Below, in pieces: positions 1 to 64,000 of a stretch of 64,000 nucleotides of DNA. The DNA comes from Liolophura sinensis (Eukaryota; Mollusca; Polyplacophora; Chitonida; Chitonidae). Both the position numbers and the translations under genes were made by a program. Where the stretch lies: NCBI RefSeq assembly GCF_032854445.1, contig NC_088295.1, positions 92,311,805 through 92,375,804 of the forward strand. The letters are read 5' to 3'. The notes beneath the pieces are model-generated. The model searched no databases, was not told where the DNA came from, and saw nothing but the letters and a program-made list of their open reading frames with translations. Numbering within the stretch: position 1 is the stretch's first letter; each line of letters starts with the position of its first letter.

Positions 1-3000
1 TCTGTCCTACCAGCTGAGTTAATATATGTAGTAATTCCCATTCCACCTTCAGAGTCGGCTACGCCACAACAGCCACCATGGGAGCCTTACATCCCTGAAG
101 AACCCAGCCCCATTTTGACAGGCTTCTACACCGACGAGGGCAAATTCTGGCTCTCTATGGTACGACTGAATTCACATGTAGTATAATGTTAGAATTGAGG
201 ACATGGTGTTTGTATTAGCTAAAATAAATAATCTGGTCATGAATGTATATAAATCAAATGTTTCCTACATTTTATGGTCAGGAAACATGAACATTTTCTG
301 TAACAAAACAATTTGTCTTCTTCATGAGTCAGTCATAGACAGTGGTACAGTGAGACAGGTCTATAATGTTTATAGATACAGTACATTTTAAGATGTGTCA
401 TTTAAAATAGCAGACACTTCTCCATCTGTCTTTAGTGGTGTCAGGAACCTAATATCTGACATTAAACACAGCCTGTGTGTGTTACAGGGTGGATTTGATG
501 CTGGTTATCTGTACGAGTGTAAGTTCTTGTCAGAAGAGGAGAAAGCCAGCATGAGAAAAGAGAATATAGACAAGCCCCTGAGGGCAGTGTCTGTCATAGA
601 CTCCAATGATGTTCCTATCACACAGATCAAGTTCAGGTAAATACCACCCATCAGATCCCTTACTAACAACAAAATTTACATTATAACAAACTCTTTGTTT
701 TCTGCCTTGTAAATTGGCAATCATACTGTGGTGTTGACTCTATCTTCTAGTTAGGAGTACAGCCTATTGTTTATGTAAAGCTTAATAATCTGTGTAATTT
801 CAAAAACTAAATGGTTAGTACATGTACATCACAAACCAGTTAAATGTAATGGATGGATACCACATGCCCATTGTCCCAGCACATCCCATCACAGAGAGAA
901 TGAACATTTGTAATCAATGTGTGGGACATCCAGCTGATCTATTAACAATAATGTAATGGATGGATACCAAATGCCCATTGTCCCAGCACATCCCATCACA
1001 GAGAGAATGAACATTTGTAATCAATGTGTGGGACATCCAGCTGATCTATTAACAATAATGTTGGTTAGAATTGGTCAAATGCCTGTCTTGATTGGTGTGT
1101 GGAAAGGTATCTGACAGGTGTGTCTGCCACTGGACACAGCGTAGGCTGAGGTGTGGTGAATTTTTCTCTAATGCTGGGATTCCACTGACGTGTGATTGTA
1201 TTTATCATTACTTGTCTGTTAGTTCTGAAAATGGGAATTACATCAATACCCAGGAGTGTTTCCACGGACTCAGCAGGAGTCTCTAGCATAAAACATGTCC
1301 CATTTTTCACATATCAGAAAAGGATTTAGTACTGGGATGGGTTGACAGATTATTTGAATCACAGTTGTCAACACATGGGCCATGGAAACGCTGTAACAAA
1401 TGCGTGAAGTAATCGCATGAAGTAACACAAACTCTTGTTTGTGGAATCACAGCCAAAAGCAAGATGAATATAACATATGTTGTACTCTTTTCTCTAACAG
1501 TTCTAAGGTGGATCAGGTGCTGATGGGCATGGAGAACGGTGCTGTGCGGATCCAGCAGATGGACCCTGAGTCCCAGGAGAAGGACCTGGGTCTGATGGGG
1601 CCCTACTGGATGCTGACCATCCACGACAACAACTACGGCCACATCACTCGTCTACTGACCAGTCACGATGACACCTACATCCTCACTGTTGGCAGAGATG
1701 GCAACTTCTTTGCCTTCAACATGATGGGACAGGAGGAGATAAAGGAGAGAGTGGCTGAGGCCAAGGCCAGACTTCCATCTGCCAGGGTAAATACCTGCAA
1801 ATACTCAGCTCATTGTGCTGAGAAACCAGTAATTACCATAACCAGGGTTCCTTCTACCAACATGAAAACCTCCACTCTGCTCACTGTACTGAGAAACCAG
1901 TAAATACCATAACCAGGCTCCCTTCTACCAACATGAAAACCTCCACTCTGCTCACTGTACTGAGAAACCAGTAAATACCATAACCAGGCTCCCTTCTACC
2001 AACATGAAAACCTCCACTCTGCTCACTGTACTGAGAAACCAGTAAATACCATAACCAGGCTTCCCTCTGGCAGAGTAAAAACCTCCACTCTGCTCACTGT
2101 ACTGAGAAACCAGTAAATACCATAACCAGGCTCCCTTCTACCAACATGAAAACCTCCACTCTGCTCACTGTACTGAGAAACCAGTAAATACCATAACCAG
2201 GCTTCCCTCTGGCAGAGTAAAAACCTCCACTCTGCTCACTGTACTGAGAAACCAGTAAATACCATAACCAGGCTCCCTTCTACCAACATGAAAACCTCCA
2301 CTCTGCTCACTGTACTGAGAAACCAGTAAATACCATAACCAGGCTTCCCTCTGGCAGAGTAAAAATCTCCAAATACTCTACTCATTGTACTCAGAAACCA
2401 GTAATTACCGTAACCAGACCCCGCTCTGCCATAACCAGATGCCCCACCCCCACCCCCTACCCCCACCTCTGGCAGAGTAAAAACCTCCAAATACTCTACT
2501 CATTGTACTCAGAAACCAGTAATTACCATAACTAACTTCATGGTCTAGGTTCTATTAGCAATTGTAGATCTATTCTTCACATGTCCACTTATATATAATT
2601 ATTACAGCTAAAGATATTGAAACATTTATGTTTTATACACAGTGTATTCCACATGAGTTAGTATACACTGTATAAATAAAGTAACCATTGCACTTTTTGT
2701 TGTCTGACGTTAGGTTTGAAAACTCAGTCCTGTGGCATTGTATTCACTGCACTGACTGGATTTTGTCAAATAACATCAGGGACTCCGTGGCTCAGTTGGT
2801 TAGCGCGCTAGCGCAGTGTAATGACCCAGAAGCCTCTCACCAATGCGGTCGCTGTGAGTTCAAGTCCAGCTCATGCTGGCTTTCTCTCCGGCTGTACGTG
2901 GGAAGGTCTGGCAGAACCTGCAGATGATTGTGGGTTTGCCCTGGGCTCTGCCCGGTTTCCTCCCACCATAATGCTGGCCGCCGTCGCATAAGTGAAATGT

Positions 3001-6000
3001 TCTTGAGTACAGCGTAAAACACCAATGAAATAAATAAATAAATCAAATAACATCATGTGTCATATTGCAGGCTATTGAGGAAGACAAGGTGGTTGATGAT
3101 ATTGATGACCCTAATGCTTACAGGTAATATAATTTTCTATGTGATGGGAAGTGTCTGGCCTTGTGGTTTACAGTGATGGTGTTAAAGTGATGTCACTGGA
3201 ATGTCTGTGTATCATGATGAAGTCTAAAAAAATCAGACAAATTTCAGAAATACAAATTTGTGAAGGTATGTTATGCGACTTTTCTTCGGAAGTTGGCTTT
3301 TGGTGTTTCAAAATGATTAGATGTGAAACTGCCTTTTGGTGAGATGTATTGTGTACAGTGTATTGTAATGTTTAGCTAATTGTGCCGTAAGGTAAATCTC
3401 AATGTTGGTATTCTTTCAGTATTGAAGATGCCAAACAAAAAGCTGAACATGACAAGATGATCCGTCAAGCCGAGGAAAAAAAGAAAGACGTTCGCCGTCA
3501 CATCGCCAAACTACGTCGAGACTTCAAAACTCTGCTGGAGAAGAACAAGACTTTACCTGAACATCTACAGCTCCACAGAGGGGTAGGTAGTGGGGTGAAG
3601 TACCAACACGCAGAGCCTCACTGTAAATTATTCAAAGGAAATGATCTTTCGTACAAGTAGTGTATATTTAGGCTACAACATGCAATACTGCCATTTTGAT
3701 CAGTGAACACCTGCAAACTGGTTCTAAATACTGATTATTACATCTCCATTTTTGTTCATCACCAGGAATTTGAAATGGATCGAGAAATCAAACAGGAGCT
3801 AGAGAAGCAGATTCAAGACAAGATAGAACTGATGAAGAAAGAGATGGCATGGGATTCTGAGAAACACAGACTGGCTCTAGAGAAACTCCAGATGAAGTAC
3901 GATCAGTGACAATCAAAGATTGTTCTTTATTGCTGAAATGCAGGTCATAGTTATAATGTTAATTGGAAGGTCTATTTTCAAAGGAGTTAAAGTTAAAATG
4001 TTACGATGAAATGTAAACTGTTATTCTACTTCACAGGTAACACTTGGAGTGTGTATGCTCCCAAGGCTGTCATGTAGTATATGGTTTTGTTTTAATCAAA
4101 CCTGTGATATTCCTTGTCTGTTTCTGTAGGTTTAAGGAAGTGGTGGAGTGTGAGAGGATTGTGGTGAAATCCTTCAACTCTCCACATGAGGTGGCCACAT
4201 TTAGGACGGCTAAACTCTCGGATGACTTCTATGACATGAAGGCTTTGTTTCAACGCCGGAAAACAATGTTCCTGTCGGGACCCTCCAGAGATACCACCCG
4301 AGAACTACGAACAGGTCAGTGTGCAGGGGCCGTTTAAATTGCCCGTCTTCACCTTCTGTATGATGTTAATACTAAAATTCGGTCTTGTTTAATAATATGA
4401 TGTATTTTTTCAGTCACTGGACTCAAATAATATGTCCATTTTGGGTCACACTGTGTAATTTTTTGATTCTCCAATAACCCTAGCATAATGCAAAATCATA
4501 GACCCTACTACACTGAGAATTTGCCTTGTGAACAAAGTTATATTTGTAGTCTTCAGACGTCAACATGGAAACAACAGTGGAGGTGCTCAGTTTATTCTGG
4601 GTGTATAGTCTGTGCCTTAAGGATCACTGTTGAAGTAACGTATTGTGATTTTGAATCCTTCAGGTCAGACCAAGCAGACAGAGGGTGGACAGGCCGTCTC
4701 TGATGTGCAAGAGAATGCCGACCTCAAAGTGAAAACATCTCTGAAGGGTAGCATGGGAGACCGCATCACTCAGGCCTTACTCAAAGTGGACGAGAAGAAA
4801 CATCAGAGAGCGGTCAGAAAAGCTCAGGTAGGTATTAACACACGCCATGCATAGGCTTCCTGTAAGGTACATATAACATAACAGAACATGTAAGTAACAT
4901 TCCCAATCTACTTCCTATAAGAAAGATATCACCAAACCTATAAGAACATGCAGTGCAAGCATGCATACATATGTAGTCACTATAGTTCATACGTTCAACG
5001 CAGTGTTGCAACATCTTGGTAGAACATGGCCATAGTCTGTACATGTGCACAGTAGCTTGGTTTGCTCACCAGCATGTCATAGTGGGATGAACTAGTGTTC
5101 TGGTGACATCTTCATCTGGCTGCATTTTCTGTATGATGAAGTTTGCTGATGTTTTTGTTCAGTGGGATGAACTGTTGGCCAGCAAACCTGATGATGATTA
5201 TGAAGACCCAGCAGATGTGGCGGCGATTAAGGAGGCCAAGGAAAACATGGGGGACTACAAGCTGAAGACAGCTCCAGACTATGTTGTCCCAGATCACATG
5301 AGGATGAACGTGGAGAAGGCCAGGGGACGACTTCTTGTCATCAAGGATCTCGTATGTTATTCCAAATCATCCAAATTTCCATATTGACAATAATGATAAC
5401 CAGTTGCTACACAAGGGCTGTGATGTTGATAAGTTTACTTTCTTTAAGACTGTTGCTATAATCCCTTGGGTTCAGTGCCTTTGCCTGAAGCATACACTGA
5501 TTGGGTCAGTGTACTGATATTATGCACCACCAAGATCACAAAGCACATGTATTATCAAATCTTCTGTTCTTGCCAACAGATCCACCAGCACAAGTATGAC
5601 TTCAATGCACAGCTGCTGGCCCTCCGGGACAGGAAGATCTCCTTACTGGACGTCCTAAGGGAGTTGGTGAAGGAGCTAAAGGAGGTTCAGGCTGAGCTAG
5701 GGCCCCACAAGCGCCTGCCTCTCCCTCACATACCCGATCTCCACCCAGAGGAGATGCCAGAAAAGTAAGGCACTCAATCACTGTCATTGTCACCAAAATC
5801 TGTATATTGTTTTGTATTCTCACACGGTCAGAAGGGACTTTTTTTTCATTAGAGAAAAACATTTCAGTTATATGAAATCTTGCCTGTTAAGAATTTTGGC
5901 AATCTTTTTTTGTTTTTTTTTTGCTTCAGCATATCAGTGTAGTGTGATCATGCTTATTTACTTCCAGGCAGTTGGAATACACCCGTGAAAGCCTGCTGGA

Positions 6001-9000
6001 ATTCAAGAAAGCACATGAAGCAAAGGAACTGGCTGCTAAGAAAGGCAGTAACACAGGATTTGGGGGATTCGGAGGGGACGGAGAAGCAACTAAGGTGAAG
6101 ATTAATTTATGGTGTGGTTCATCAACCAGTCTTGTGCAATTCTTTGTCATGTGAAACAGCCTTGTGTTAACTGATACATCTGTGTGTTTCAGCCATCCTC
6201 ACCAGCAGGAACTCCAAAACAAGGAACATCACTCAGTAGTCTGACCAAGTCTGACTCGAATGTGATTAGTGAACAGGGCCCACCTACAGTAGCAGATGGA
6301 GAAGAGGAGCTGTCGGACGCTGAGAGGCAAATTAGAGAGGCCAGAGAAATTAGGTTTGTCATGACATCCTCCTCAAGTTTATTGTAGCAGAGAACAGATT
6401 CTGTAGTAACCACACTCACATAGCTTTCCTTTCTCTCCCAAAAGCAGATTCTACCGTTATTTCAGCCATATAGCTTTCCTTTCTCCTCCCACAGCAGAAT
6501 TTGTGGTTACCATGGTCACATGGCTTTCCTTTCTCCTCGAAGAGCATATTCTAGTCATGTAGTTATCTCAGTCACATGTCTACAGACTACAGTATCTGAG
6601 AAATTCTGTAGTATCAAGAGTCATATAATTTTCTCTTCTCCTCCAAGAGCAGATGCTGTAGTTATCTCCGTCACATGACTGTCCTTTCTTCTCAAGATTA
6701 CAGTATCTGAGAAATTCCGTAGTACCACAGTCATATAACTTTCTCTTCCCCCATCTACAGATACTGTAGTTGTCTCAATCACATGACTGTCCCTTCTCCC
6801 CCAGATTAGAGAGGCTAGATTCTGTAGTTAGAACAGGCCTGTTACTTTCTCTTCTGTCTGGGTAACTGTACCAGAGAGACCAGATATCTGCAGTTACAAC
6901 AGTTCTATATGTAACTTTCCCTTCTCCCACAGGAGAGCAATTTGTAGTTAGCTCATGTGAGCCATCTCTCTGCATTCCTCCAGGTTATTGTACCAGAGAG
7001 ACCAGATTGTTCTCAAGATCAAGGAACTGAAGCAACATTTTGATGCTGACCTACGCTTGCTGAGACATGACAAGTTCAACCTGGACATCATCATGAAGAA
7101 TGCTGATCTCAGGTATGACCTGATTTTGTATATACGCACTCACCTGTTAGAAGGCATTGCTCTCCCCTTGATCTTTGAGCCTTCAGCAGGTCTGTCAAAT
7201 AGGCCTGTTGGGAGGCTAATGATGTGCTACACAAAAATGTCCAGATTGCAGTAAACAGCTTACAGGTACTATGGCCAAGGGAAAAAAAAGAGTATGTAGA
7301 TTTAAACTGCAAGAATGAGTTTTACAAGTTAACAGTTTTCTAACTTATTCAGTTTATGAGAAAAAAAAAACAATGTCAAGAAACACAGGGTTTTTAGGGG
7401 ATGATGTCTATTACTATTATGTCTATAACATGATTGGATTGGGTATTCTCTTTTATACCGTAGAATGACGTGTTCTTTATGTTCTGTAAATGTGTGTGCA
7501 CAGATGTATCAGTACCTACATGCCATGCCCTTATGTCCTGTAGACATGTGACGCTGTTTGAAGAGCTGGTTTTGCTGAAGGAGTTTGAGAAGAGTGAGGA
7601 TGTGCTGGCTGCCAAGGTGGAGAGTAAAGAGCAGGAGAAGTTGGAGATGCAGGCCAAGGTTTGTACATGCACCTCCTATAGCACACAATCATTCAGGAGA
7701 GCCACTCACAATGTGACTGGAATGTTGAGAGGAATGATTAGATACACAGTTCCTCTGTGTTAAGAAGAAATTGTGTGATAGTTTACTGTTGATATGCAAG
7801 TGGCTTAGTGTTCACTACTGACACTAGATATAATGTTATAACTCTAACTGGTTCATTTTTCTCACGTGATGGCTACCATTGTTACAGGTTCTGGACTGCC
7901 AAAGCAAATTGGAAAATAAGAAAAAAGACATAGAAAGGCTTCAGGAAAAAGAAAAAGCCTTACACGCAGCGTTTCTTGCTTCTCTTGGAGACAACAACAA
8001 ATTTTCAGATTACCTACAGAAAGTTTTTAAGAAGAAAATCAAACGAGCTAAGAAGAAAACTACAGATGCTGATGGTATGTGATATGTTCTTGTAGAGTAC
8101 ATGTATTACTCTGATAGGTGTGTTCCACTGATTGATTGATTGGTAGGTGTTTAATACCTTACTCAATAATATTTCTCATATACGATGGTTTGTCATGTTT
8201 ATGAGAGGAAACTGGAATGGCCAGAGTAAACCGCTGACCTTTGCCAAGCATGTGACAAACCTCTTGGCGTAAAGCTGCAGCTGAAGCAGTGAGAGCTGAA
8301 TTCAAACACAAGACCTCATAGGTTAAGAGCCCGATAGTGACAGCAAGCCAGCACATTAACGGCTGAGCCAGTGTCTCAATGGCAAACCTTATACAACAGA
8401 TGATCAATATATTGTTTTCTCTGTCATGGGAAAAGAGGTCCCAAGGTGACAGAAGTGTGTTATGATGAAGTGAACAAAAAATATGTAAGTATATATTTTG
8501 GAAAGAATATCATGTTTGATGAAAGTCACATATACATTGTATTGGGCCCACTCTGTAGCATACTTTACCTGTTTTGTTATTGATGTTTAGGCTCTGATGA
8601 GGAGAGCGACGATGAGAGTGATGACGAGTCAGATTGGGATGAATCTGATGAGGAGTCAGAGTCAGAAACGGGGGGTTACGACTTGGATGTGTGTCCTTCA
8701 GGCTGTGACCAGGTGAGAGTTTGAGGTCATTTGGGGGACGTGCTAAATCCTTCAGCTGATTTGACAAGTTGTGCAAGAAAGATATCCAAAAATATTTTAT
8801 ATGATTGCTATATTAATGCTCATATTGGATATATACCAACTAGTATAATCAACTAAATTTTAGTCTTTGAACTCTTTACTTACTTTTTACTACCTGTTTG
8901 ATAGCGCCATGAAAGATAGTGTGTGTTTTTTTTTTGATAGTGTTCTTACATGTACGTCTTTGTTTTACAGGCAATCTATGACAACACCTGTCAGATGCGA

Positions 9001-17044: not shown

Positions 17045-20000
17045 TTAGAATGGAATCTGAGGTGAAGTACGCCTTGTCTTAAGCCGGATAAACTCGAGCC
17101 AATTCCACAAGCAGCCGCGGTCATGTATATTTCCTCTAGCATAGAGGCCGAGAACTGTCATACCTCTCACAGCGGCCATGTGGAGCTCCTGGGAGGTGAT
17201 GTTCTGGCTTATCAGGAGTAGCTGAAGGAGTAGGGCCACGCACATAATACTGCTGCCCAGAATAGCATAGCAGGCACAGACAAAACATAATGCAGTGCTG
17301 CAAAAGACGACAAACACAACCAACTGTTAGCACACTACACTTAATTTACTTATTTGTTTGATTGGCGTTTTAAAGCTGTTCTGCAGAATGTTTTTCTTAT
17401 ATGTTGGCACTCAGGTTTATAGGCAGGAAATCAGAATGGCCTTTGGCATGTACAAATTTAGCTGACAAACCTCCCTGACCTGAAGAGGCAACTAAACAAT
17501 CAAAGCTGGACTCAAATACACAACCTCATACACTGTAAAAACACCCAAAGACGTTTCTGATGCCAAGAGTGTCAAAATTCCAAGGATTCCTATACTTTCA
17601 CATTACACATATAGTGTCACCTGACAAAAATGTAGTACATGTATGAGGACTGTTATTACAGAAGTCTTAATACTCATATAAATATGAGTTGACATGGTTA
17701 ATATCATTAGAACAGGCATCTTTAATTGGGCTGCGTTGTTTAATACAAGGCAAGTTGAAGGTGTAACTCACGAAAAATCTGCGTAGACATATCGGCAGTC
17801 ATTAGGTAAGAGGAACCAGTCGTAATACATCTCCGGGGTACAGATGGTGGTTAAGGTAAGGTGAGCGCCATAGAAACCAGTGAAGACAAACAGCAGAATG
17901 GCCACTAAAAATGAGCGATGATTGTGAGCCCCAATACAGTTGTCCACCCTGCAAACAGATCACACAGATCAGACAATCATAAAGTCCCAATACAGTTGTC
18001 CACCCTGCAAACAGATCACACAGATCAGACAATCACACAGCCTCAATACAGTTGTCCACCCTGCAAACAGATCACACAGATCAGACAATCACACAGCCAC
18101 AATACAGTTGTCCACCCTGCAAACAGATCACACAGATCAGACAATCACACAGCCCCAGTACAGTTGTCCACCCTGCAAACAGATCACACAGATCAGACAA
18201 TCACACAGCCACAATACAGTTGTCCACCCTGCAAACAGATCACACAGATCAGACAATCACACAGCCCCAATACAGTTGTCCACCCTGCAAACAGATCACA
18301 CAGATCAGACAATCACACAGCCCCAATACAGTTGTCCACCCTGCAAACAGATCACACAGATCAGACAATCACACAGCCACAATACAGTTGTCCATCCTGC
18401 AAACATATCACACAGATCAGACAATCACACAGCCACAATACAGTTGTCCACCCTGCAAACAGATCACACAGATCAGACAACCACACAGCCCCAATACAGT
18501 TGTCCACCCAGCAAACAGATCACACAGATCAGACAATCACACAGCCTCAATACAGTTGTCCACCCAGCAAACAGATCACACAGATCAGACAATCACACAG
18601 CCTCAATACAGTTGTCCACCCAGCAAACAGATCACACAGATCAGACAATCACACAGCCTCAATACAGTTGTCCACCCTGCAAACATATCACACAGATCAG
18701 ACAATCACACAACCCCAACACAGTTGCCCACCCTCCAAACAGATCACACAGATCAGACAATCACACAGTCCCCAACACAGTTGTCCACCCTGCAAACAGA
18801 TCACACAGATCAGACAATCACACAGCCTCAATACAGTTGTCCACCCTGCAAACAGATCACACAGATCAGACAATCACACAGCCCCAATACAGTTGTCCAC
18901 CCTGCAAACAGATCACACAGATCAGACAATCACACAACCCCAATACAGTTGTCCACCCTGCAAACAGATCACACAGATCAGACAATCACACAGTCCCAAT
19001 ACAGTTGTCCACCCTGCAAACAGATCACACAGATCAGACAATCACACAGCCTCAATACAGTTGTCCACCCTGCAAACATATCACACAGATCAGACAATCA
19101 CACAGCCACAATACAGTTGTCCACCCTGCAAACAGATCACACAGATCAGACAATCACACAACCCCAATACAGTTGTCCACCCAGCAAACAGATCACACAG
19201 ATCAGACAATCACACAGCCTCAATACAGTTGTCCACCCTGCAAACAGATCACACAGATCAGACAATCACACAGCCTCAATACAGTTGTCCACCCTGCAAA
19301 CAGATCACACAGATCAGACAATCACACAGCCCCAATACAGTTGTCCACCCTGCAAACAGATCACACAGATCAGACAATCACACAGCCCCAATACAGTTGT
19401 CCACCCTGCAAACAGATCACACAGATCAGACAATCACACATCCCCAATACAGTTGTCCACCCCGCAAACAGATCACACAGATCAGACAATCACACAGCCC
19501 CAATACAGTTGTCCACCCCGCAAACAGATCACACAGATCAGACAATCACACAGCCTCAATACAGTTGTCCACCCAGCAAACAGATCACACAGATCAGACA
19601 ATCACACAGCCCCAATACAGTTGTCCACCCTGCAAACAGATCACACAGATCAGACAATCACACAGTCCCAATACAGTTGTCCACCCTGCAAACAGATCAC
19701 ACAATCACACAGCCCCAATAAAACTGTCCACCCTGCAAACAGATCACACAGATCAGACAATCACACAGCCCCAATACAGTTGTCCACCCTGCAAACAGAT
19801 CACACAGATCAGACAATCACACAACCCCAATACAGTTGTCCACCCAGCAAACAGATCACACAGATCAGACTATCACACAGTCCCAATACAGTTGTCCACC
19901 CTGCAAACAGATCACACAGATCAGACAATCACACAGTCCCAATACAGTTGTCCACCCTGCAAACAGATCACACAGATCAGACAATCACACAGTCCCAATA

Positions 20001-23000
20001 CAGTTGTCCACCCTGCAAACAGATCACACAGATCAAACAATCACACAACCCCAATACAGTTGTCCACCCTGCAAACAGATCACACAGATCAGACAATCAC
20101 ACAGTCCCAATACAGTTGTCCACCCAGCAAACAGATCACACAGATCAGACAATCACACAACCTCAATACAGTTGCCCACCCTCCAAACAGATCACACAGA
20201 TCAGACAATCACACAACCCCAATACAGTTGTCCACCCTGCAAACAGATCACACAGATCAGACAATCACACAGTCCCAATACAGTTGTCCACCCTGCAAAC
20301 AGATCACACAGATCAGACAATCACACAGCCTCAATACAGTTGTCCACCCAGCAAACAGATCACACAGATCAGACAATCACACAACCCCAATACAGTTGTC
20401 CACCCAGCAAACAGATCACACAGATAAGACAATCACACAGCCTCAATACAGTTGTCCACCCTGCAAACAGATCACACAGATCAGACAATCACACAGCCTC
20501 AATACAGTTGTCCACCCTGCAAACATATCACACAGATCAGACAATCACACAACCCCAATACAGTTGTCCACCCTGCAAACAGATCACACAGATCAGACAA
20601 TCACACAGTCCCAATACAGTTGTCCACCCAGCAAACAGATCACACAGATCAGACAATCACACAGCCCCAATACAGTTGTCCACCCTGTAAACATATCACA
20701 CAAATCAGACAATCACACAACCCCAATACAATTGTCCACCCTGCAAACAGATCACACAGATCAGACAATCACACAACCCCAATACAGTTGTCCACCCTGC
20801 AAACAGATCAGACAATCACAGTCCCAATAGAGTTGTCCACCCTGCAAACAGATCACACAGATCAGACAATCACACAACCCCAATACAGTTGTCCACCCTG
20901 CAAACAGATCAGACAATCACAGTCCCAATAGAGTTGTCCACCCTGCAAACAGATCACACAGATCAGACAATCACACAACCCCAATACAGTTGTCCACCCT
21001 GCAAACAGATCACACAGATCAGACAATCACACAACCCCAATACAGTTGTCCACCCTGCAAACAGATCACACAGATCAGACAATCACACAGCCCCAATACA
21101 GTTGTCCACCCAGCAAACAGATCACACAGATCAAACAATCACACAGTCCCAATACAGTTGTCCACCCTGCAAACAGATCACACAGATCAGACAATCACAC
21201 AGTCCCAATACAGTTGTCCACCCTGCAAACAGATCACACAGATCAGACAATCACACAGTCCCAATACAGTTGTCCACCCTGCAAACAGATCACACAGATC
21301 AGACAAACACACAGCCACAATACAGTTGTCCACCCTGTAAACAGATCACACAGATCAGACAATCACACAGTCCCAATAAAGTTGTCCACCCAGCAAACAG
21401 ATCACACAGATCAGACAATCACACAGCCCCAATACAGTTGTCCACCCTGCAAACAGATCACACAAAGTCAAGACTATAATACAAACCCAATACAACTTAC
21501 CATACACAGTGATGGTCTCTATTGAGTATACATGCCTGACACACATGACAATGGCCAGCTCGCGGCGGTTTGACCAGACAACATTTATCACACCAGGTCA
21601 CAAGCTGATTATCTGAAACACAAACAACCATTCTCACAATACAGGTTACCAATCAGACTGCTTTTGTCACACATTTTAATATTACAAAAGCAGCCTTTGT
21701 CATGCTGTATGACTTATTACAAACTAGGGGGCTTCCATAGCCAAGGTCCTTACCCAACAATGCGGTGGTGGTGAGTTCGTCCAAGAGGAAAGGTCTCACT
21801 CCGCCAGATCCCTGGGCTCTGCCTGGTTTCCACCCACCATAATACTAACCACCACTGTATAAGTGAAATATTCTTGAGTCTGGCATAAAACGCCAATCAA
21901 ATAAATAAACGCATCAGTATTACAAGCAGCCTTTGTATTACCTTTGTACCCACACAAACGGCTTTGTCAGAGCATATGACAGTCACACTTTGAGTCACAA
22001 TGTATTAATACAGTCCAGCTCAAGTCCAGCTTATGCTGACATTTTCTCTGACACGATGCGAGAAGGTGTAGCAGCAACTTGCGCATGGTCATGGGTTTCC
22101 CTCAGGCTCTGCCACATTTTTTCCCGACCATAGTACTGGCTGATGTCACATAAGTGAAATATTCTTGAGTACAGTGTAAAACACACATCAAATAAGTAAA
22201 TAAATCAAATAAATAATGCCTAAACAGCCATTATCACACTGTTTTACCACACAGCCAGCCTTTGTAATACCGGCACTAATTTACTGCACACACACTTTGT
22301 CAGAACACTTTACCACACAAACATCCTTTCCCATGTCACATTCTGTCACTTTTGTCACATAACATTACCATTCAGACAAACTTTATCCCAACATATTTGA
22401 TTGCAATGATAATGTAAGCCAATGAGAGTAGGAAATCCTTGAATTATTATAGTTCATATAAATGACACATATATTTACAGCCACCGGCAAATACATATTT
22501 TACCTACCTTTAATTGGTCGCGAGTCCACCCAAGTGACCTTTTGTTCAGGCATACTGGGAGCTGTTTGAGCCTGGTAGTTGGCTTTAAACGATTCCTTGT
22601 CGAAGCCCATGTTTGACAGCAGGAAGTTGCCCAACACATGCTCAGAAATTGTTTTCGAGTAATCATCCTTGGAATCTTTCTGACTGGCTGCATCCTTCTG
22701 ATCCTGACTGGACGACAGGTGTTGATTGGATGGAGTAACTGTGTCGGGCGAGGCTGGTTTAATGATTCCTGGATCTTTTCTCACAAATGTGAGAGCGAAG
22801 AACATGATGCCGATGGACGTAACCAGAAGCATCTGCTCCCACAGAAACACCTCTCGGAAGGACAGAACAAATGCGTGATAAATCAAAATGGTAAAGAGCA
22901 CAGAGGTCATAGCCCAGGCATAGAAAAACTTTGTACGCACTCTGTTGTGTTGAGTTCTCCATGAGCGATAGAAGAGGAACATGAAGATAGGCATGGAAGC

Positions 23001-32597: not shown

Positions 32598-50602
<18,005 letters not shown>

Positions 50603-52394: not shown

Positions 52395-53037
52395 AATTAT
52401 TAATCCAAGTTCGAATCCAAAACCAGCAATTTTTATGGTTTGCTAAAATTCATAAATCTGAGCAAATCAGAGATGCTAATGAAAGTCAAAAATCGGAATA
52501 CATTACTCTACCCCATCCCAGTGATCTTAAATTTAGACCCATCATATTGCTGGCCCGTGTTCACCAACACAAATATTAAGCCATCTTACTGATATATTAC
52601 TTAAACAATTTCTAGATGACATTAAAATTAGCTTAGGGATGATTTAGATTTCCTGAATCATTTACCTCAGGAAGTAGAGGAAGAGGCTAAAATGGCCACA
52701 TTTGACGTACACAGTCTATGTAGTAGTATTCCACACGACCTAGGACTAGAAGCTATGCAATACTGACTTACTAACTTTTCTAGCTCACTCCACCAACGTT
52801 TTAAAGGTGAATTAATCAATGATAGTATTAAATTTATTTTGAACAATAATTCATTTTGCCTCAACAATGAACACTACATGCAAATTTTAGGTACTACCAT
52901 GGGAACCAAAATGACCCCAGTATACGAAACATTTGTGATGGGGTTTCTTGAAATTAAGTTGTATGAAACTATTTCCTCGAAATACGGAACTGAGTATGGT
53001 AAATGGAATCACTGTATACATACAACAAACATCGCAA
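52395..53037 (+). pseudogene. Dead Penelope-like element reverse transcriptase fragment
   Basis: Broken open frames carry the motif series of Penelope-like reverse transcriptases in order: LWFAKIHK (usually LPKIHK) near 52433, FRPII near 52532, DVHSLCSSIPHDLGLEAMQY near 52706, and GTTMGTKMTPVYETFVMGFLE near 52893. Stops and frame changes interrupt it, and the C-terminal part and any GIY-YIG endonuclease are missing. The right end runs into a SINE tail at 53044. A retroviral or LINE-type enzyme is less likely because of the KIHK and GT-MGTKM signatures. Confidence 0.75.
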
Positions 53038-53043
53038 GATTAT

Positions 53044-53101
53044 ACATAGTGAACATTCTTGAGTACGGCGTAAAACACCATTCAAATAAATAAATAAATA
53101 C
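53044..53101 (+). mobile_element. SINE family A, extreme 5' truncation (tail only)
   Basis: Only the last part is present: ATTCTTGAGTACGGCGTAAA, CACC and TCAAATAAATAAATAAATA. It is inserted directly after the reverse transcriptase remnant. Confidence 0.8.

Positions 53102-53827: not shown

Positions 53828-53829
<2 letters not shown>

Positions 53830-53907
<78 letters not shown>
53830..53907. repeat. TA dinucleotide microsatellite
   Basis: About 38 uninterrupted TA units in the intergenic region. Confidence 0.95.
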
Positions 53908-53910
<3 letters not shown>

Positions 53911-54106: not shown

Positions 54107-54332
54107 GATTTATTTACTTATTTGATTGGTATTTTATGCCGTACTCAAAAATATTTCCATATACGACGGTGGCCAGCATTATGCCGGGGGAAACCCTCGA
54201 CCATCCGCAGGTTGCTGATAGACCACATACGGCCGGAGAGGAAGCTAGCATGAGCTGGACTTGAACTCCCAGCGACCGCATTGGTGAGAGGCTTCTGGGT
54301 CATTACGCTGCGCCAGCGCGCTAACCAACTGA
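54107..54332 (-). mobile_element. Nearly full-length SINE family A with target site duplication
   Basis: Minus-strand copy from the tail (ATTTATTTACTTATTTGATT on the + strand) to the A box (GCGCTAACCAACTGAG). It is flanked by TGTACGATTTGA on both sides, a clear target duplication. About ten bases of the usual 5' end seen at 2779 are missing. Confidence 0.9.

Positions 54333-55059: not shown

Positions 55060-55060
<1 letters not shown>

Positions 55061-55128
<68 letters not shown>
55061..55128. repeat. Compound TA/TG microsatellite
   Basis: About 11 TA units followed by about 23 TG units, 220 bp upstream of the TOMM70 start codon. Confidence 0.95.
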
Positions 55129-55129
<1 letters not shown>

Positions 55130-55349
55130 GGCCATATCGTATGCCAGTAATTCCGTCGTATAGAATAAAAGCCAATATTTCATGCATATCCATTAAGGTG
55201 TTTATACATTTTGATCACTTATATATCTTTGCATTGGACAAGCAAGTTGCTTGAAACAATACTTAGTGGGCCAACATGTGCGTGCATTTGTGAAACGGTA
55301 ATTAAGGGGAGATAACTTCAGCTCGCTAACTATTTGAGCTCCGAGCACG

Positions 55350-58300
55350 ATGGCCTCGAAACTGAAAACTGCGCTGGAAGGATGGGAGAATTGGCAAATT
55401 GCTGTTGCAGTCGGGGCGCCGATTGCGCTAGGACTAGCTGGTCTCTGGTATTATAAACTGTCAAATTCAAACAAGACAGTCGACAAGTCGAATAAAGCGA
55501 AGGGTGACACGGAACCCGTGTCCCAGAAAACTGACGCCCAGGTATTCATGCTTGCAACAACAACACCTCCATACCTATAAAACGCTACTACCGGTATCTG
55601 GCGGATTGTGAATATGCTAATACTCTGCGTTCGATCCCTTTATTATCGCCATCACAGGGAACAGTTTCTGCCTGTTTCTTGGATAGATCGAATGTGGCAC
55701 TAACTGTAGTACAGTTATACGCTGACACTGACTGATACTTGTCAGTGATATAAGCTGTGTATTTGACATAATTCAACGCATGTGCAAGTCAGTCTGAACA
55801 TGCACTGACAGCTTAGCAAGCCAACAAAACATGCAAGTGTTGACTTCATTGTAAAAACTGCTGTCTTTGTGATAAGTATTCTTGTTTTGAAGGCAGTCAT
55901 GGATTTTTGTGACCTTTGAGACATGTTTCAAATAGTGCGTTTTGGCAGGTTCCCAAAAGTTACACTGTTCATGTACATGTATGTCATATATTTGCATGTT
56001 GGTACACGTAGTGCACAAAATAATCCATTTTAATGTTCACCACAGTATTATTCCACCTCAGAATTAAAATCTAAAGTTTCCAGCATTCAAGCATGTAAAA
56101 TAGTTGAGAAAATACATGCACTGGTTGGTTAATTGTCAGCAGAATGATAAAGTTGATTTTGGGAAAGGCGAGGGTTGACACCTGTTTTCAATAGTTCAGT
56201 GGCTATTTCAGGGTTGCCACAGTCATGAAGCAATCTGAAAAGTCATGGATATATTTCCCAGTCATGGATTGTCATAAAAAAAATCATAAATTTTGAAAAG
56301 TTAAGAGAATGTAATGATTTTTTTTCTTAAATGTAGACAGGTATACTTGTATCAGTATGACATATCATTTGACCACACTTTTCCCCAGTGTTTGCCTACA
56401 CTTGTCCCAGTGTTGTGAAGAAAGTGCCTCACACCTCTTGTTTTTCATATCACATTTTGGTTGAGTTATGGTGTGCAAGTGAGAGACTTGAACAGCTAGT
56501 AGCAAAGACTTTCACGGAAGAAAACAAATTTTTGGGGCATTCAGAGTCTTGTATAACAGACTTAGGAATTTAGAGAAGAGAAAATATATTGTGTGTTAAA
56601 TGCACAATGCACACACAGTCTGTTGGTGGATTAGGTGGCTAAAAGACAAGATGTGGAAACGATAGTCATCTACAGTAAAAATAATTGCACTCTGAAGACA
56701 GGTTTTTCAGATTTGATCAGCTTGCATGAATAAATCATGAATTTGATCTTATTTGATCAGTGGCAACCCTGCTATTTACGTAGAAAGAATCTCAGAGAGA
56801 CAGTAGTTCCAATTGTTCTGTCAGGGCAAAAAACTAGATGATCATGAACACCTGAAACAACAGATACACGCAGTGCTTTGTGAGAGACTCGTAGAATGTG
56901 TACAGCTGTCTATACCTACTGGTGATTAAGAGTGGTGGGTGAAGGAAATATCAGATAATGGTTATGATATCAGATAATGGTTATGATATCAGATTATTGC
57001 TAAAGATATGCAGGAAATTCACAGTTTTATTACAACGATACTATTTCCCTTCCAGCTAAAGTTAGAAAAAGCTCAAGAGGCCAAAGTTAAAGGAAACAAA
57101 TACTTCAAAGGAGGACGATATGACCTTGCCATTGAGTGTTATACAGAGGCTATCAGGATGTGTCCTGACAATCAGGCTTCTGATCTGGCCACCTTTCATC
57201 AAAACAGAGCAGCAGCATGAGCAACTTGTGAGTACCTATAATGGCCATCCGAAGTCATACATGTAATTCATCATAAAAATTATATGTGTACAATATAGGA
57301 AATATTTAGGAACATATTTAGGAGAAGTGCTTTGCTGGCAAAACATTTTTAGCAAACCAACAAAGTGAAACAAAGCACTGTCTGTGTGACTGCAGACCAT
57401 TAGCTTAATTAAAAAATTGCTGGTGGGTATATCATTAAACTATTTCTGGTGTGGGTATCATTAAACTATTTCTGGTATGGGTATCATTAAACTATTTCTG
57501 GTATGGGTATCATTAAACTATTTCTGGTGTGAGTATCATTAAACTATTTCTGGTATGGGTATCATTAAACTATTTCTGGTATGGGTATCATTAAACCATT
57601 TCTGGTGTGAGTATCATTAAACTATTTCTGGTATGGGTATCATTAAACCATTTCTGGTATGGTATCATTAAACTATTTCTGGTATGGGTATCATTAAACC
57701 ATTTCTGGTGTGAGTATCATTAAACTATTTCTGGTATGGGTATCATTAAACTATTCCTGGTGTGGGTATCATTAAACCTATTTCTGGTATGGGTATCATT
57801 AAACCATTTCTGGTGTGAGTATCATTAAACTATTTCTGGTATGGGTATCATTAAACCATTTCTGGTGTGAGTATCATTAAACTATTTCTGGTATGGGTAT
57901 CATTAAACTATTCCTGGTATGGGTATCATTAAACTATTCCTGGTATGGGTATCATTAAACTATTTCTGTTGTGAGTATCATTAAACTATTTCTGGTGTGG
58001 GTATCATTAAACTATTTCTGTTGTGAGTATCATTAAACTATTTCTGGTGTGGGTATCATTAAACTATTTCTGTTGTGAGTATCATTAAACTATTTCTGGT
58101 ATGGGTATCATTAAACTATTCCTGGTGTGGGTATCATTAAACTATTTCTGTTGTGAGTATCATTAAACTATTTCTGGTGTGGGTATCATTAAACTATTTC
58201 TGTTGTGAGTATCATTAAACTATTCCTGGTGTGGGTATCATTAAACTATTTCTGTTGTGAGTATCATTAAACTATTCCTGGTATGGGGTATCATTAACTA

Positions 58301-61300
58301 TTCCTGGTATGGGTATCATTAAACTATTTCTGGTGTAGATATCATTAAACTATTTCTGCTATGGGTATCATTAAACTATTTCTGGTATGGGTATCATTAA
58401 ACCATTTCTGGTGTGAGTATCATTAAACTATTTCTGGTATGGGTATCATTAAACCATTTCTGGTGTGAGTATCATTAAACTATTCCTGGTATGGATATCA
58501 TTAAACCATTTCTGGTGTGAGTATCATTAAACTATTTCTGGTATGGGTATCATTAAACCATTTCTGGTGTGAGTATCATTAAACTATTTCTGGTATGGGT
58601 ATCATTAAACTATTTCTGGTATGGGTATCATTAAACTATTCCTGGTATGGGTATCATTAAACTATTTCTGCTATGGGTATCATTAAACTATTCCTGGTAT
58701 GGGTATCATTAAACCATTTCTGGTGTGAGTATCATTAAACTATTTCTGGTGTGGGTATCATTAAACTGTTCCTGGTGTGGGCGTCATTAAACTATTCCTG
58801 GTGTGGGCGTCATTAAACTATCCCTGGTGTGGGTATCATTAAACTATTCCTGGTGTGGGTATCATTAAAGTGTCTCTGGTGTGAGTATCATTAAACTATC
58901 CCTGGTGTGGGTATCATTAAACTATTCCTGGTGTGGGTATCATAATATTTAAGTTTGGCATGAACAGAAATCAAATAAAGCCCAAAACATTCTCAGGTCA
59001 ATAGCTAAGTACCCTAAATGATCTGAAATTTTGCAAACAATAGTGCATAAGTAGGCATATTAATGTCACAAAATATTATTTTTGGCTCTGAAAGTTACAT
59101 CTTTTCAGTACAATACCATCCCATGTTTCAAGCAAACCTCAAAACATCTTTCAAAAATCAATAGAACTCTCAGAATCAGGAAAAATGGGCAGGTTAGTCA
59201 TGGATGGAATTTAGTGTCATTTAGGGTATCAGCTTTTGAAGGGAATTTCTTTGCTTTTATTCTGTTTGTACTGAACATGTGCTGAAAGGTAGTAAGAAAA
59301 TTTGATTACTAACATATTCAAGCTTGTCTTGTGAGAACAAAAAAGGTATTAATAATGATTTTAGATGTGTTAGCCTTTCAGTGTAGAGTAGTTTATTTGA
59401 GGAAGATTACTAACATGAAGGCAAAGCACAGCATACCTTATATAGTGCAGTATTTCGTTACCATTGGCATTGTATTCCTGTATATTTTTATACAGAAAAA
59501 CAATGAGAAAGTGATTGAAGATTGCAACCGTGCTTTGGAGCTGCATAACAGATATGTAAAGGCCTTTTTTAGACGCGCTAAGGCTTTCGAGCAAACAGGA
59601 CAACTGACAAATTCTCTGGAAGGTAAGCAGAAGGTGTAAGTTCACTCTCAAATAAAATGATGTAGAATTGTATAACATATTGTTATCATGAGTATCCCTA
59701 TACCCACTTGGGGGTTTAATGACACAGGAGCCTCTCACCAATGCGGTCACTGTGAGTTCAAGTCCAGCTCATGCTGGCTTCCTCTCCGGCTATATGTGGG
59801 AAGGTCTTGAAGCAACCTGCAGATGGTCATGGGTTTCCACGGGCTCTACCCAGTTTCCTCTCACCATAATGCTGGTCGCTGTCATATAAGTGAAATATTT
59901 TTGAGTATGGCGTAAAACACCAATCAAATAAATAAATAAAAAAATTTTTTTCTTGGAGTTACAAATGTAAACTGAATTCTTTTCTTCAAATTTGAGATAA
60001 TATGAGGATTTATCTCTGGATGTGAAATACACAAAATGGTCCACTTTCAACCATTATACAACTTTTTCAGTTCAAAATATTTCAAAAAAACAGTGTTGTA
60101 AATATAAACTTATAGTTTATAAATAATACAGGTAAATCATTTAGGGCTAGTTTGTTTTTTTCTTCAAATTTGAGATAATATGAGGATTTATCTCTGGATG
60201 TGAAATACACAAAATGGCCCACTTTCAACCATTATGCAACTTTTTCAGTTCAAAATATTTCAAAAAAACAGTGTTGTAAACTTATAGTTTATAAATAATA
60301 CAGGTAAATCATTTAGGGCTAGTTTGTGAGTTATCACATTGTACATAGGTAAATCATTTAGGGCTAGTTTGTGAGTTATCACATTGTACATAGGTAAATC
60401 ATTTAGGGCTAGTTTGTGAATTATCACATTGTACATAGGTAAATCATTTAGGGCTAGTTTGTGAATTATCACATTGTACATAGGTAAATCGTTTAGGACT
60501 AGTTTGTGAGTTATCACATTGTACATAGGTAAATCATTTAGGGCTAGTTTGTGAGTTATCACATTGTACATAGGTAAATCGTTTAGGACTAGTTTGTTAG
60601 TTATCACATTGTACATAGGTAAATCATTTAGGGCTAGTTTGTTAGTTATCACATTGTACATAGGTAAATCGTTTGGGGCTTGTTTGTGAATTATCACATT
60701 TGTGAAGGTTAAAGAATGTCCACCCAGATCTTGATATTTTAAATAAATACTCTAGTTAGTTGTGTGCTTTGGTGACCCAAAACTATTTAATAAATCTCCA
60801 CAAAGATCTTAGCATCATTCACTTGGTGCAATTTTCAATTAACTGGGGTATGAGTAAAAAAAAAAAAATACTGTGCGAACTGTATGAGTCCATGGTCCTG
60901 TTTATTTTTAGTGAAATTAGTTTGGAGGGGGGCAGAGCATAAATATTTTTTAGGTTCATCGAGGTACAAACGCAAAAAATTGACTTATCAGAAAGAACTT
61001 TATTGCTTAAACACAAAGAAAATTTAATTATTTAAATTTGTAGTCAATGTAAATTTCCACACAATGTATGACAAACAGGAATCATCGTTGATGGAGAAAA
61101 TTGTGCAAGTTTTACATTAAAGTAACAGTGATCCAAAAAAAGAACATATCTGGATATGACCATTCTGGTCCATGGATTATGTATATAGTTTTTGCATTAA
61201 GGCTCAGTTTGTCTATTTCTATGATTTTAATACTGGGGGATTTGTTTATTACAAGGTGGCCTATCAAACGCATCGATAGTAAAATTTAGTGTGTACTATT

Positions 61301-63783
61301 GGTGTGTCTTTAGTATTTTGTTGCATTGTTGTATTTGACAGTTGTAACGGCCTTGTATGGAGGTATTAAAAAATCAGATCAGCATATAGTGTTATAAGTT
61401 TCTCTTTTTGAGATAATTGGGTAAATAGACACATTAACAAAGAAATTGTAATAAGGATATAATCAAATTCTTTATAATCTAATCGTTATCTCAGTCTGAC
61501 CCTGTTTTGTCAAATTATGTTTTCCAGATATAAAATCAGTGTGCAGCACACTTTGTGTCTGGCACTATTGTGAACACTGTGGTTTATGTGAAAAGACTGG
61601 TCACCAGATATGTGTGCTTTTCTTGTCAGATAGAACAGCGGTGTGCGGTCATATGTGTGTTTGTGTTGTCAGATATAACAGCGGTGTGTAGTCATGTGTG
61701 TGTTTTTGTTGTCAGATATAACAGCAGTGTGCAGTCATGTGTGTGTTTTTGTTGTCAAATATAGCAGCAGTGTGCAGTCATGTACATTTTTGTTGTCAGA
61801 TATAACAGCAGTTTGCAGTCATGTACGTTTTTGTTGTCAGATATAACAGCAGTGTGCAGTCGTGTGTTTTTGTTGTCAGATATAACAGCAGTGTGCAGTC
61901 ATGTATGTTTTTGTTGTCAGATATAACAGCAGTGTGCAGTCATGTATGTTTTTGTTGTCAGATATAACAGCAGTGTGCAGTCATGTGTGTGTTTTTGTTG
62001 TCAGATATAACAGCAGTGTGTAGTCATGTACATTTTTGTTGTCAGATATAACAGCAGTTTGCAGTCATGTGCGTTTTTGTTTTCAGATATAACAGCAGTG
62101 TGCAGTCATGTGCGTTTTTGTTGTCAGATATAACAGCAGTGTGCAGTCGTGTGTGTGTTTTTGTTGTCAGATATAACAGCAGTGTGCAGTCATGTGTGTG
62201 TTTTTGTTGTCAAATATCGCAGCAGTGTGCAGTCGTGTGTTTTTGTTGTCAGACATAACAGCAGTGTGCAGTCATATATGTGTTTTTGTTGTCAGATATA
62301 ACAGCAGTGTGCAGTTGTGTGTTTTGTTGTCAGATATAACAGTGGTGTGTAGTCATGTGTGTTTTTGTTGTCAGATATAACAGCAGTGTGCAGTCATGTG
62401 TGTTTTTGTTGTCAGATACAACAGTGGTGTGTAGTCATATGTGTGTTTTTGTTTTCAGATATAACAGCAGTGTGCAGTCGTGTGTTTTTGTTGTCAGATA
62501 TAACAGCGGTGTGTAGTCATGTGTGTTTTTGTTGTTAGATATAACAGCAGTTTGCAGTCATGTGTGTGTTTTGTTGTCAGATATAACAGCGGTGTGTAGT
62601 CATGTGCGTTTTTGTTGTCAGATATAACAGTAGTATGCAGTCATGTGTGTGTTTTTGTTGTCAGATATAACAGCAGTCATGTGCGTTTTTGTTGTCAGAT
62701 ATAACAGCAGTGTGCAGTCATGTATGTTTTTGTTGTCAGATATAACAGCAGTGTGCAGTCATGTATGTTTTTGTTGTCAGATATAACAGCAGTGTGTAGT
62801 CATGTACATTTTTGTTGTCAGATATAACAGCAGTTTGCAGTCATGTGCGTTTTTGTTTTCAGATATAACAGCAGTGTGCAGTCATGTGCGTTTTTGTTGT
62901 CAGATATAACAGCAGTGTGCAGTCATGTGCGTTTGTGTTGTCAGATATAACAGCAGTGTGCAGTCATGTACATTTTTGTTGTCAGATATAACAGCAGTTT
63001 GCAGTCATGTGCGTTTTTGTTTTCAGATATAACAGCAGTGTGCAGTCATGTACATTTTTGTTGTCAGATATAACAGCAGTTTGCAGTCATGTGCATTTTT
63101 GTTGTCAGATATAACAGCAGTGTGCAGTCATGTATGTTTTTGTTGTCAGATATAACAGCAGTGTGCAGTCATGTATGTTTTTGTTGTCAGATATAACAGC
63201 AGTGTGTAGTCATGTACATTTTTGTTGTCAGATATAACAGCAGTTTGCAGTCATGTATGTTTTTGTTGTCAGATATAACAGCAGTCATGTGCGTTTTTGT
63301 TGTCAGATATAACAGCAGTGTGCAGTCATGTATGTTTTTGTTGTCAGATATAACAGCAGTGTGCAGTCATGTATGTTTTTGTTGTCAGATATAACAGCAG
63401 TTTGCAGTCATGTGCATTTTTGTTGTTAGATATAACAGCAGTGTGCAGTCATGTACATTTTTGTTGTCAGATATAACAGCAGTTTGCAGTCATGTGTGTT
63501 TTTGTTTTCAGATATAACAGCAGTGTGCAGTCATGTGCGTTTTTGTTGTCAGATATAACAGCAGTGTGCAGTCGTGTGTTTTTGTTGTCAAATATAGCAG
63601 CAGTGTGCAGTCATGTGTGTTTTTGTTGTCAGATATAACAGCAGTGTGCATTCATGTGTGTTTTTGTTGTCAGATATAACAGCAGTGTGTATTATGGAGA
63701 ACTTTGATAACCAGCAAAGCCTCCTCATGGCAGACAGGGTGCTAAAGGAGTTGGGGAAAACCAAGGCTAGGGAGGCATTCAAG
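55350..63783 (+). CDS. TOMM70: TOMM70 mitochondrial import receptor, exons 1-4, 3'-partial, with apparent frameshift in exon 2
   Basis: Outer-membrane receptor that takes precursor proteins from Hsp70/Hsp90 through TPR repeats and passes them to the TOM channel. Exons: 55350-55541, 57056-57227, 59496-59622, 63674-63783 (donor GTTTGT; the rest lies beyond the window). The N-terminal anchor is WQIAVAVGAPIALGLAGLWY (residues 15-34), followed by a Lys/Ser-rich linker. TPR1 is KGNKYFKGGRYDLAIECYTE, followed by ATFHQNRAAA. TPR2 is IEDCNRALELHNRYVKAFFR, then ITAVCIMENFDNQQSLLMAD, all closely matching animal TOMM70. Exon 2 is 172 nt where a multiple of 3 is required. After GCAGCAGCA a single T precedes GAGCAACTT (Glu-Gln-Leu), so two bases are missing and TGA at 57218 is read. 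This is probably an assembly error, otherwise a null allele. Introns 2 and 3 are filled with minisatellites. Confidence 0.92.
57416..58943 (+). repeat. 26-bp minisatellite, about 58 copies (TOMM70 intron 2)
   Basis: Units of GTATCATTAAACTATTTCTG plus GTATGG, GTGTGG or GTGTGA. The GTGTGAGTATC version contains GTGAGTA, the same heptamer as the exon 2 donor at 57228, but the similarity is short. Occasional indels occur (for example near 57660, 57778 and 58285). Confidence 0.95.
59717..59944 (+). mobile_element. SINE family A, 5'-truncated, TOMM70 intron 3
   Basis: Begins AATGACACAGGAGCCTCTCA (the loop between A and B boxes), then GTGAGTTCAAGTCCAGCTCA (B box), the standard body, and the tail CACCAATCAAATAAATAAAT. 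It is well preserved and so relatively young. Confidence 0.9.
59982..60329. repeat. Two-copy 178-bp tandem duplication
   Basis: The block starting TTCTTCAAATTTGAGATAAT at 59982 repeats at 60160, with a few substitutions and a small deletion. Its end (AGGTAAATCATTTAGGGCTA) is the start of the 45-bp array that follows, so the two repeats share an origin. Confidence 0.9.
60302..60690 (+). repeat. 45-bp minisatellite, 8-9 copies (TOMM70 intron 3)
   Basis: Each unit contains TTGTACATAGGTAAATCATT, in which TAG is directly followed by GTAAAT. The acceptor-like and donor-like dinucleotides are therefore abutted. It has no clear match to a neighbouring exon. Confidence 0.95.
60700..61600. other. Unique part of TOMM70 intron 3
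   Basis: AT-rich sequence with no exon, element or structured RNA that I can recognise. Confidence 0.5.
61608..63690 (+). repeat. Acceptor-side splice-junction minisatellite, about 52 copies of about 40 bp (TOMM70 intron 3)
   Basis: The last unit is the real acceptor and start of exon 4: TTTTTGTTGTCAG followed by ATATAACAGCAGTGTG (63674-63689). Upstream units repeat both parts, then CAGTCATG and a variable GTGTGT stretch, with lengths of roughly 35-43 bp. The exon-derived part would encode the conserved D-I-T-A-V-C of TOMM70, so spurious short open frames through the array contain that peptide. Nearly all copies keep CAG and the T-rich tract. Confidence 0.93.
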
Positions 63784-64000
63784 GTTTGTGGATGGCCAAA
63801 GTGTTTCTGTTCCTTTCTGTGGCATTTTCCTTGAATTGATATTGACAGTGTATATAGCAGTCATTAGTAGAACTTGGTGATAGCATGCTCATCTCTGTCA
63901 TGTTTAAGGCCTATCAAAATGATGTCCTCAAATGTAAATCAATCAACCTTTGGAAAGCAGAATACTTGTTTGATGGAATGTAAATCTTATTGCAATTGGC

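Follow-up and report, generated by a model that had tools for sequence, protein, structure and literature searches.

This locus raises the question of why introns of neighbouring genes carry tandem repeats of their own splice junctions, and whether a process aimed at junctions has to be assumed. In the stretch of Liolophura sinensis DNA that we analysed (64 kb, hereafter the window), direct tandem copies of the intron's own junction occur in five introns of three genes, CFAP44, ZDHHC23 and TOMM70 (Table 1). TRF detected the four large arrays, and sequence reading with copy extraction identified their units as junction copies. Every unit is contiguous genomic DNA across an exon edge and the adjoining intron edge and is thus not mRNA-derived; 16-36 nt of each unit in the large arrays are true exon. 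In all five cases the terminal copy is the true junction, with the array extending into the intron. We then scored the 52 junctions of 26 introns against shuffles (ATP1A contributed four introns only, and the CFAP44 intron 16 donor was off by one). The five repeated junctions scored far above the shuffles (z = 29, 22.6, 20.7, 9.5 and 8.5), followed by the CFAP44 intron 8 acceptor (z = 5.9, a single 13-nt copy); the CFAP44 intron 12 donor reached z = 4.0. Antisense scores did not exceed 18 among the best 16 junctions, as against 40-95 for the five. These results bear out the first-pass annotation, which had described the arrays as sense copies of the adjoining junction that include exon sequence, touch the real junction and differ in unit sequence from intron to intron. 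A masked BLAST of the arrays against the window mostly missed the junction link, because the true junction sits within the TRF array.

Table 1. Genes and junction-repeat arrays in the window. CFAP44 introns are numbered from the in-window exons only.
Feature	Position	Strand	Details
CFAP44 gene	53..8074	+	model with 15 in-window exons; less exactly placed exons follow as far as about 9147
CFAP44 intron 3 array (donor)	1767..2532	+	10 copies, unit 71-75 bp; true donor 1786/1787
CFAP44 intron 12 array (degenerate, acceptor)	6370..7007	+	true acceptor 6983/6984
ZDHHC23 gene	17048..25258	-	five coding exons: 25136-25258, 22508-23196, 21501-21612, 17772-17948, 17048-17297
ZDHHC23 intron 3 array (acceptor)	17927..21494	-	64 copies of a 56-bp unit with 22 exonic nt; true acceptor 17949/17948
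ZDHHC23 intron 1 array (acceptor)	23161..24869	-	32 copies of a 53-bp unit with 36 exonic nt; true acceptor 23197/23196
TOMM70 gene	55341..63783	+	in-window exons 57056-57227, 59496-59622, 63674-63783; a first exon with approximate limits lies near 55341
TOMM70 intron 3 array (acceptor)	61610..63689	+	41-bp unit, 52 copies extracted

The unit of CFAP44 intron 3 consists of the last 20 nt of the exon (1767-1786), the donor and about 50 nt of intron. The 16 nt of exon in the TOMM70 unit correspond to 63674-63689, and an isolated degenerate copy lies at 61515-61546; the TOMM70 query was assembled by hand. Degeneration in ZDHHC23 intron 1 affects the two copies farthest out, which start at 24869 and 24800. 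In CFAP44 intron 12, self-matches separated by gaps start 16 nt inside the intron and reach 24 nt into the next exon; two of them are copies of the acceptor junction (87.5% and 92% identity). The five introns are long (630-4051 bp); the 17 others in the three genes have a median length of 328 bp and reach at most 2268 bp. Large size is also seen in a non-junction array of the window (57408-58943, 59 copies).

The first-pass annotation knew of no named repeat class of this kind. Such a class exists: junction-spanning minisatellites of amphioxus have been named 'mirages', and the available text of two reports (PMC3087553, PMC3902484) places them in Adh3, the globin genes BflGb6 and BflGb9, PGBD5 and TnC (Canestro 2002, PMC117041, as cited in PMC3087553). 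According to these descriptions, mirages share with the chiton arrays a unit that spans the exon-intron boundary, with one copy representing the genuine boundary, and may involve the donor (here CFAP44 intron 3) or the acceptor (here the other four). Instability of copy number, somatic or between alleles, is a further trait given for mirages; the chiton data come from a single assembly sequence. The described hosts are cephalochordates whereas ours is a mollusc, but taxon was not treated as defining because the published description is structural. The chiton arrays also differ in copy number (up to 64, against 3 and 6 units in BflGb6 haplotypes) and in affecting three genes within one 64-kb window, with one intron wholly and one mostly mirage, unlike what is described for amphioxus. 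Literature searches found no mirage in a mollusc. In the available text of two papers on chiton genomes (PMC11068029, PMC12005716) the word 'satellite' is absent, 'tandem' and 'intron' occurring once each in the latter in unrelated contexts, and the accessible parts of PMC4039745, PMC7931591, PMC4732748 and PMC3152781 hold nothing on mollusc mirages. With the present arrays the range of mirages widens from lancelets to a mollusc. Copies are far more numerous here and, as described below, mirages are also present in genes not chosen for them.

Could the copied sites be kept by selection, as splicing enhancers, for alternative splicing or as a recursive-splicing ratchet? AG is retained in 29/32 copies of ZDHHC23 intron 1, 50/64 of ZDHHC23 intron 3 and 49/52 of TOMM70 intron 3, and GT in 5/10 copies of CFAP44 intron 3. 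However, splice dinucleotides were no better conserved than other unit positions; the acceptor A of ZDHHC23 intron 3 was among the worst-kept (78%, against a mean of 98%). Of the intact decoy AG copies, about 125 in all, we examined 121, four from ZDHHC23 intron 1 having been lost in mapping. None of the 121 gave an open frame, a stop preceding the end of the next exon in every case, so decoys are unusable as coding mRNA; reading on beyond the CFAP44 intron 3 donor meets a stop at 114 nt. The ratchet, which the first-pass annotation had also proposed, is unsupported because AG directly before GT occurs only in ZDHHC23 intron 1 and in none of the other three large arrays. Selection on extra sites is therefore very improbable. 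Our modelled 450-aa ZDHHC23 product is identical to the NCBI L. sinensis protein, whose annotation uses the proximal junctions and excludes the repeats; this and the frame-breaking decoys would be compatible with repeats that stay out of mature mRNA, another trait described for mirages. In human segmental-duplication genes tandem repeats likewise cross exon-intron boundaries, but there, as the available part of PMC2812944 reports, they can alter splicing and proteins, whereas the chiton mRNA appears unchanged.

Two introns, ZDHHC23 intron 3 and CFAP44 intron 12, consist almost wholly of junction repeats, and slippage in a pre-existing intron, without loss of the old intron sequence, leaves this composition unexplained, a point against the neutral explanation that we favour below. 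They might have originated when exonic sequence was duplicated in tandem, expansion following. The array equals ZDHHC23 intron 3 (17949-21500) except for 6 nt, self-matches cover 82% of CFAP44 intron 12, and the sequence that flanks the ZDHHC23 array distally can be aligned to the unit as far as the donor (score 85.5, an alignment without control). Birth by duplication should leave the intron start similar to the downstream exon start, and the upstream exon end similar to the intron end; we found no significant similarity of this kind. The comparison of intron start with downstream exon start gave a score of 12 in ZDHHC23 intron 3 and of 9 in CFAP44 intron 12; 4.5% of 552 mismatched pairs reached 12, and TOMM70 intron 3 scored higher (14). 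An origin of these introns by gain is accordingly doubtful. The model of Rogers (1989) and the potato RdRp case (PMC4974935) likewise involve local tandem duplication with splice-site sequence, but there the duplication falls in coding sequence and creates an intron, whereas here an existing junction has been copied into one, with no gain shown.

The first-pass annotation had further argued that random slippage should not choose junctions so often. Under free placement (arrays of at least 8 copies, array end 40 nt outside to 45 nt inside an exon, ATP1A exon limits approximate), 4/6 arrays in the window ended at a junction, against 0.31 expected (P = 1.5e-4). With intron-aware nulls the excess shrank to 5/9 against 2.3-2.9 (P = 0.012-0.038), and both sets of P-values must be read in the light of the window having been chosen on account of these arrays. 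As an independent sample we used kinesin genes of the same genome, picked regardless of repeats (ten 10-kb regions, later 13 further loci, at 11 of which exon limits were bare match limits). Arrays occupied 21.9 of 100 kb (22%) in the ten regions, very unevenly, so that some junction overlaps are to be expected. At a cut-off of 4 copies, 4/26 kinesin arrays overlapped an exon edge, against 1.18 expected (P = 0.027). This roughly 3-fold excess had P = 0.064 in the ten regions alone, 0.07 with a looser array cut-off and 0.115 without one 7-nt case (L048). A version with mixed cut-offs (3.9 copies for the 13 loci, 4 for the ten regions; P = 0.042) was rerun with a single one; the sample holds 28 arrays at 3.9 and 35 at 2.5 copies. 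Four more arrays, three of them in one gene, ended within 60 nt of an exon (1.14 expected, P = 0.022), which gives 8/26 overlapping or near edges against 2.32 (P = 0.001). Arrays in short introns end near exons anyway, however, which the kinesin null ignores, and several near-edge arrays (L044, L038) contain no exon sequence. Junction overlaps above random placement in both window and kinesin sample nevertheless count against our preferred explanation. What survives of the argument is a modest excess: junction targeting is weakly supported, and a junction-associated duplication process (R-loops, fork stalling at exon edges or similar) that favours exon edges seems unlikely, if less so than intron gain.

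Among the 60 exon edges that delimit the 30 best kinesin matches, sequence reading identified at least 3 mirages, edges having been read by eye only where the scan was positive. The L048 acceptor was moved by eye from the automatic 6342 to 6394. The low-scoring L043 donor at 7942 was accepted because the reading frame past the array start resembles KIF3-type kinesins; the L046 acceptor (z = 8.4) was left out of the count. At two scan-positive edges, L044 and L038, the true site lay elsewhere, the arrays ending 27 and 55 nt short of it. Arrays thus mislead site calling, the automatic calls being wrong at L044, L038 and L048. Recurrence at other loci also argues against an assembly artefact, as do differences between units within arrays. 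Long arrays are generally error-prone, and one TOMM70 exon has a 2-nt frame defect, but the scaffold lengths fit the PacBio HiFi/Omni-C assembly described in the available text of PMC11068029, whose reads should exceed arrays of 0.6-3.6 kb. We consider an artefact highly implausible.

The arrays are probably mirage-type intronic minisatellites whose neutral growth is tolerated by splicing, rather than products of a strongly junction-targeting process. A small tandem duplication of genomic DNA (unit 40-75 bp) would first span a splice junction; its later expansion, through slippage, unequal exchange or gene conversion, would be confined to the intron side. Splicing would keep to the outermost, exon-proximal copy, as the NCBI protein agrees for ZDHHC23, leaving the mRNA unchanged, and the arrays would be tolerated for this reason; the protein would be disrupted if an array grew into the exon or a decoy were used. 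The frequency of junction arrays would follow from the great abundance of intronic minisatellites in this genome. No strongly targeting process is required, and a mild exon-edge preference (about 2-4 fold) remains. A bolder reading, to which we give only a small share of belief, is that exon-edge-biased duplication copies junctions into introns throughout chiton genomes, that such repeats take the place of whole introns or even give rise to them (ZDHHC23 intron 3, CFAP44 intron 12), and that the spliceosome routinely picks one site among dozens of near-identical decoys. With their many copies and their occurrence in genes not chosen for them, the chiton mirages can serve as natural experiments: on how introns lengthen and turn over, and on splice-site choice where as many as 64 near-identical decoys compete.

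Two observations concern other features of the window. An antisense open frame in the ZDHHC23 array (19722-20687) was rejected as coding, a protein search having given no matches at E 0.001; long open frames arise in the intron 3 array because the 56-bp unit has no stops. The first-pass annotation had contrasted ATP1A as lacking such arrays; TRF found no large array in this gene, although one of its donors lies within a two-copy duplication of 15 bp (41849-41880).

A genome search located the window at C1:92311805-92375804 of a 609-Mb assembly. We listed its arrays with TRF and derived gene models manually, guided by open frames and GT/AG sites. The CFAP44 model matched solved axonemal CFAP44 chains, the TOMM70 piece matched TOM70, and the ZDHHC23 model was identical to the NCBI protein of the chiton Liolophura sinensis. 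Array copies were pulled out and aligned in gene sense. As the first-pass annotation had claimed, each unit contained the neighbouring true splice site with 16-36 nt of genuine exon sequence. The terminal copy was the true junction itself. We scanned 52 junctions in 26 introns uniformly, comparing 25 exon plus 25 intron nt with the rest of the intron and using 25-60 dinucleotide shuffles each. The junctions of the five such repeats, or mirages (CFAP44 introns 3 and 12, ZDHHC23 introns 1 and 3, TOMM70 intron 3), were strong outliers (z, in descending order, 29, 22.6, 20.7, 9.5 and 8.5); weaker signals came from a 13-nt copy in CFAP44 intron 8 (z 5.9) and from the donor of CFAP44 intron 12 (z 4.0). 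Self-matches covered 82% of CFAP44 intron 12, versus none in 11 of 12 other CFAP44 introns and 23% in intron 2; this test left aside introns 5 and 11, which were too short, and intron 3.

The argument that slippage should not choose junctions so often found weak support: an excess remained, but intron-aware nulls reduced it to P values of 0.012-0.039. Under free placement in the window, 4/6 arrays of at least 8 copies lay at junctions (0.31 expected, P = 1.5e-4), 3/6 when TRF limits had to reach 5-45 nt inside the exon (P = 2e-4), and 5 of all 14 arrays, one being a tiny ATP1A duplication (1.08 expected, P = 0.0026). This null is too easy. With arrays kept inside their own introns, 5/9 were observed, where a block null expected 2.85 (P = 0.038) and a founding-unit null 2.32 (P = 0.012). 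Without two nearly all-array introns, the count was 3/7 against 0.89 (P = 0.039) or 0.68 (P = 0.018). All window P values are subject to the caveat that the window was picked out because of these very arrays. ATP1A, proposed as an array-free contrast, nevertheless has a donor covered by that 15-bp duplication; the window holds five such short duplications outside arrays, so this one is compatible with chance.

Because the window had been singled out and the null was over-easy, we sampled kinesin genes in the same 609-Mb genome, chosen by Pfam match (132 exon matches). In ten 10-kb regions round the ten best-scoring genes, arrays made up 21.9 kb of 100 kb, with single regions ranging widely from 0 to 6.2 kb, and 3/21 arrays of at least 4 copies overlapped an exon edge (0.93 expected, P = 0.064). 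With 13 further loci and a single copy cut-off, the count was 4/26 (1.18 expected, P = 0.027); P was 0.07 if arrays of 2.5 copies were counted and 0.115 without locus L048. Four more arrays, three of them in one gene, ended no more than 60 nt from an exon (1.14 expected, P = 0.022). The four overlaps were checked by eye on the sequence; two other positives of the automatic scan (L044, L038) were wrong on sequence and were discarded. Among the 30 best kinesin exons, mirages occurred at at least 3/60 edges. This genome thus has mirages outside the window too, at a few per cent of sampled junctions. Intronic minisatellites are abundant there in general, and exon edges show a modest excess.

Since the units are continuous genomic DNA, duplication took place in DNA. 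Arrays grew into the intron only, and all 121 examined decoy acceptors (array copies other than the exon-proximal site) would lead to a stop codon upstream of the next exon's end. Selection for extra splice sites had been suggested; splice dinucleotides were conserved no better than the remaining positions, and GT was lost from half of the CFAP44 copies, which argues against it. Intron-only growth, decoys predicted to be unusable and dinucleotides without special conservation together suggest neutral array growth, which would be tolerated because splicing would use the exon-proximal site, presumably through exon definition, an established principle. In ZDHHC23 intron 1, exon-near copies were more divergent than farther ones, the two outermost excepted; no clear similar gradient was found in the other arrays.

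The first-pass annotation knew of no named repeat class of this kind. Amphioxus mirages, as described in PMC3087553 and PMC3902484, have the same structure: they too occur at donors as well as acceptors, have units of similar size and retain splice signals. The copy numbers, the introns that are wholly or mostly mirage and, as far as the literature searched shows, the phylum are new here. PMC3087553 also proposes that mirages may seed new introns. For ZDHHC23 intron 3, a test of this on the sequence of the present genome was negative, and such an origin seems improbable.

Features recorded in the window and at the sampled loci
Feature	Position	Observation
SINE copies	2778-3040; 59720-59945	tRNA-like; presumably a type common in molluscs
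Frame antisense to ZDHHC23	17915-20830	open, 971 aa
Neighbouring frame	19722-20687	322 aa; homologue search found none
ATP1A donor	41849-41880	two-copy duplication over GATAAT/GTAAGTTA
Open frame	52767-53093	presumably like reverse transcriptase of Penelope/DIRS type (impression only)
TOMM70 exon	57056-57227	2 nt missing near its end versus TOM70 homologues
TOMM70 intron 2	57408-58943	26-bp unit, 59 copies, GTGAGT-like words; adjoining donor not among outliers of the 52-junction scan
TOMM70 intron 3	59980-60700	adjoining non-junction arrays, 178 bp x 2 and 45 bp x 9
L039, L040 (20 kb right of window)		13 more tandem arrays (8 and 5), ~2-45 copies, in and beyond TOMM70
Kinesin mirage, L047		acceptor, 23 nt exon
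Kinesin mirage, L048		acceptor, 7 nt exon
Kinesin mirage, L043		donor, 46 nt exon; least certain of the four
Kinesin mirage, L027/L045		donor, 54 nt exon
Kinesin intron, L044	6154-7276 (gene sense, L044 region)	almost wholly two different arrays, stopping about 43 and 50 nt before its exons

The TOMM70 frame defect may be an assembly error, an allele or a pseudogene. The 971-aa antisense frame is open because the 56-bp unit has no stop.
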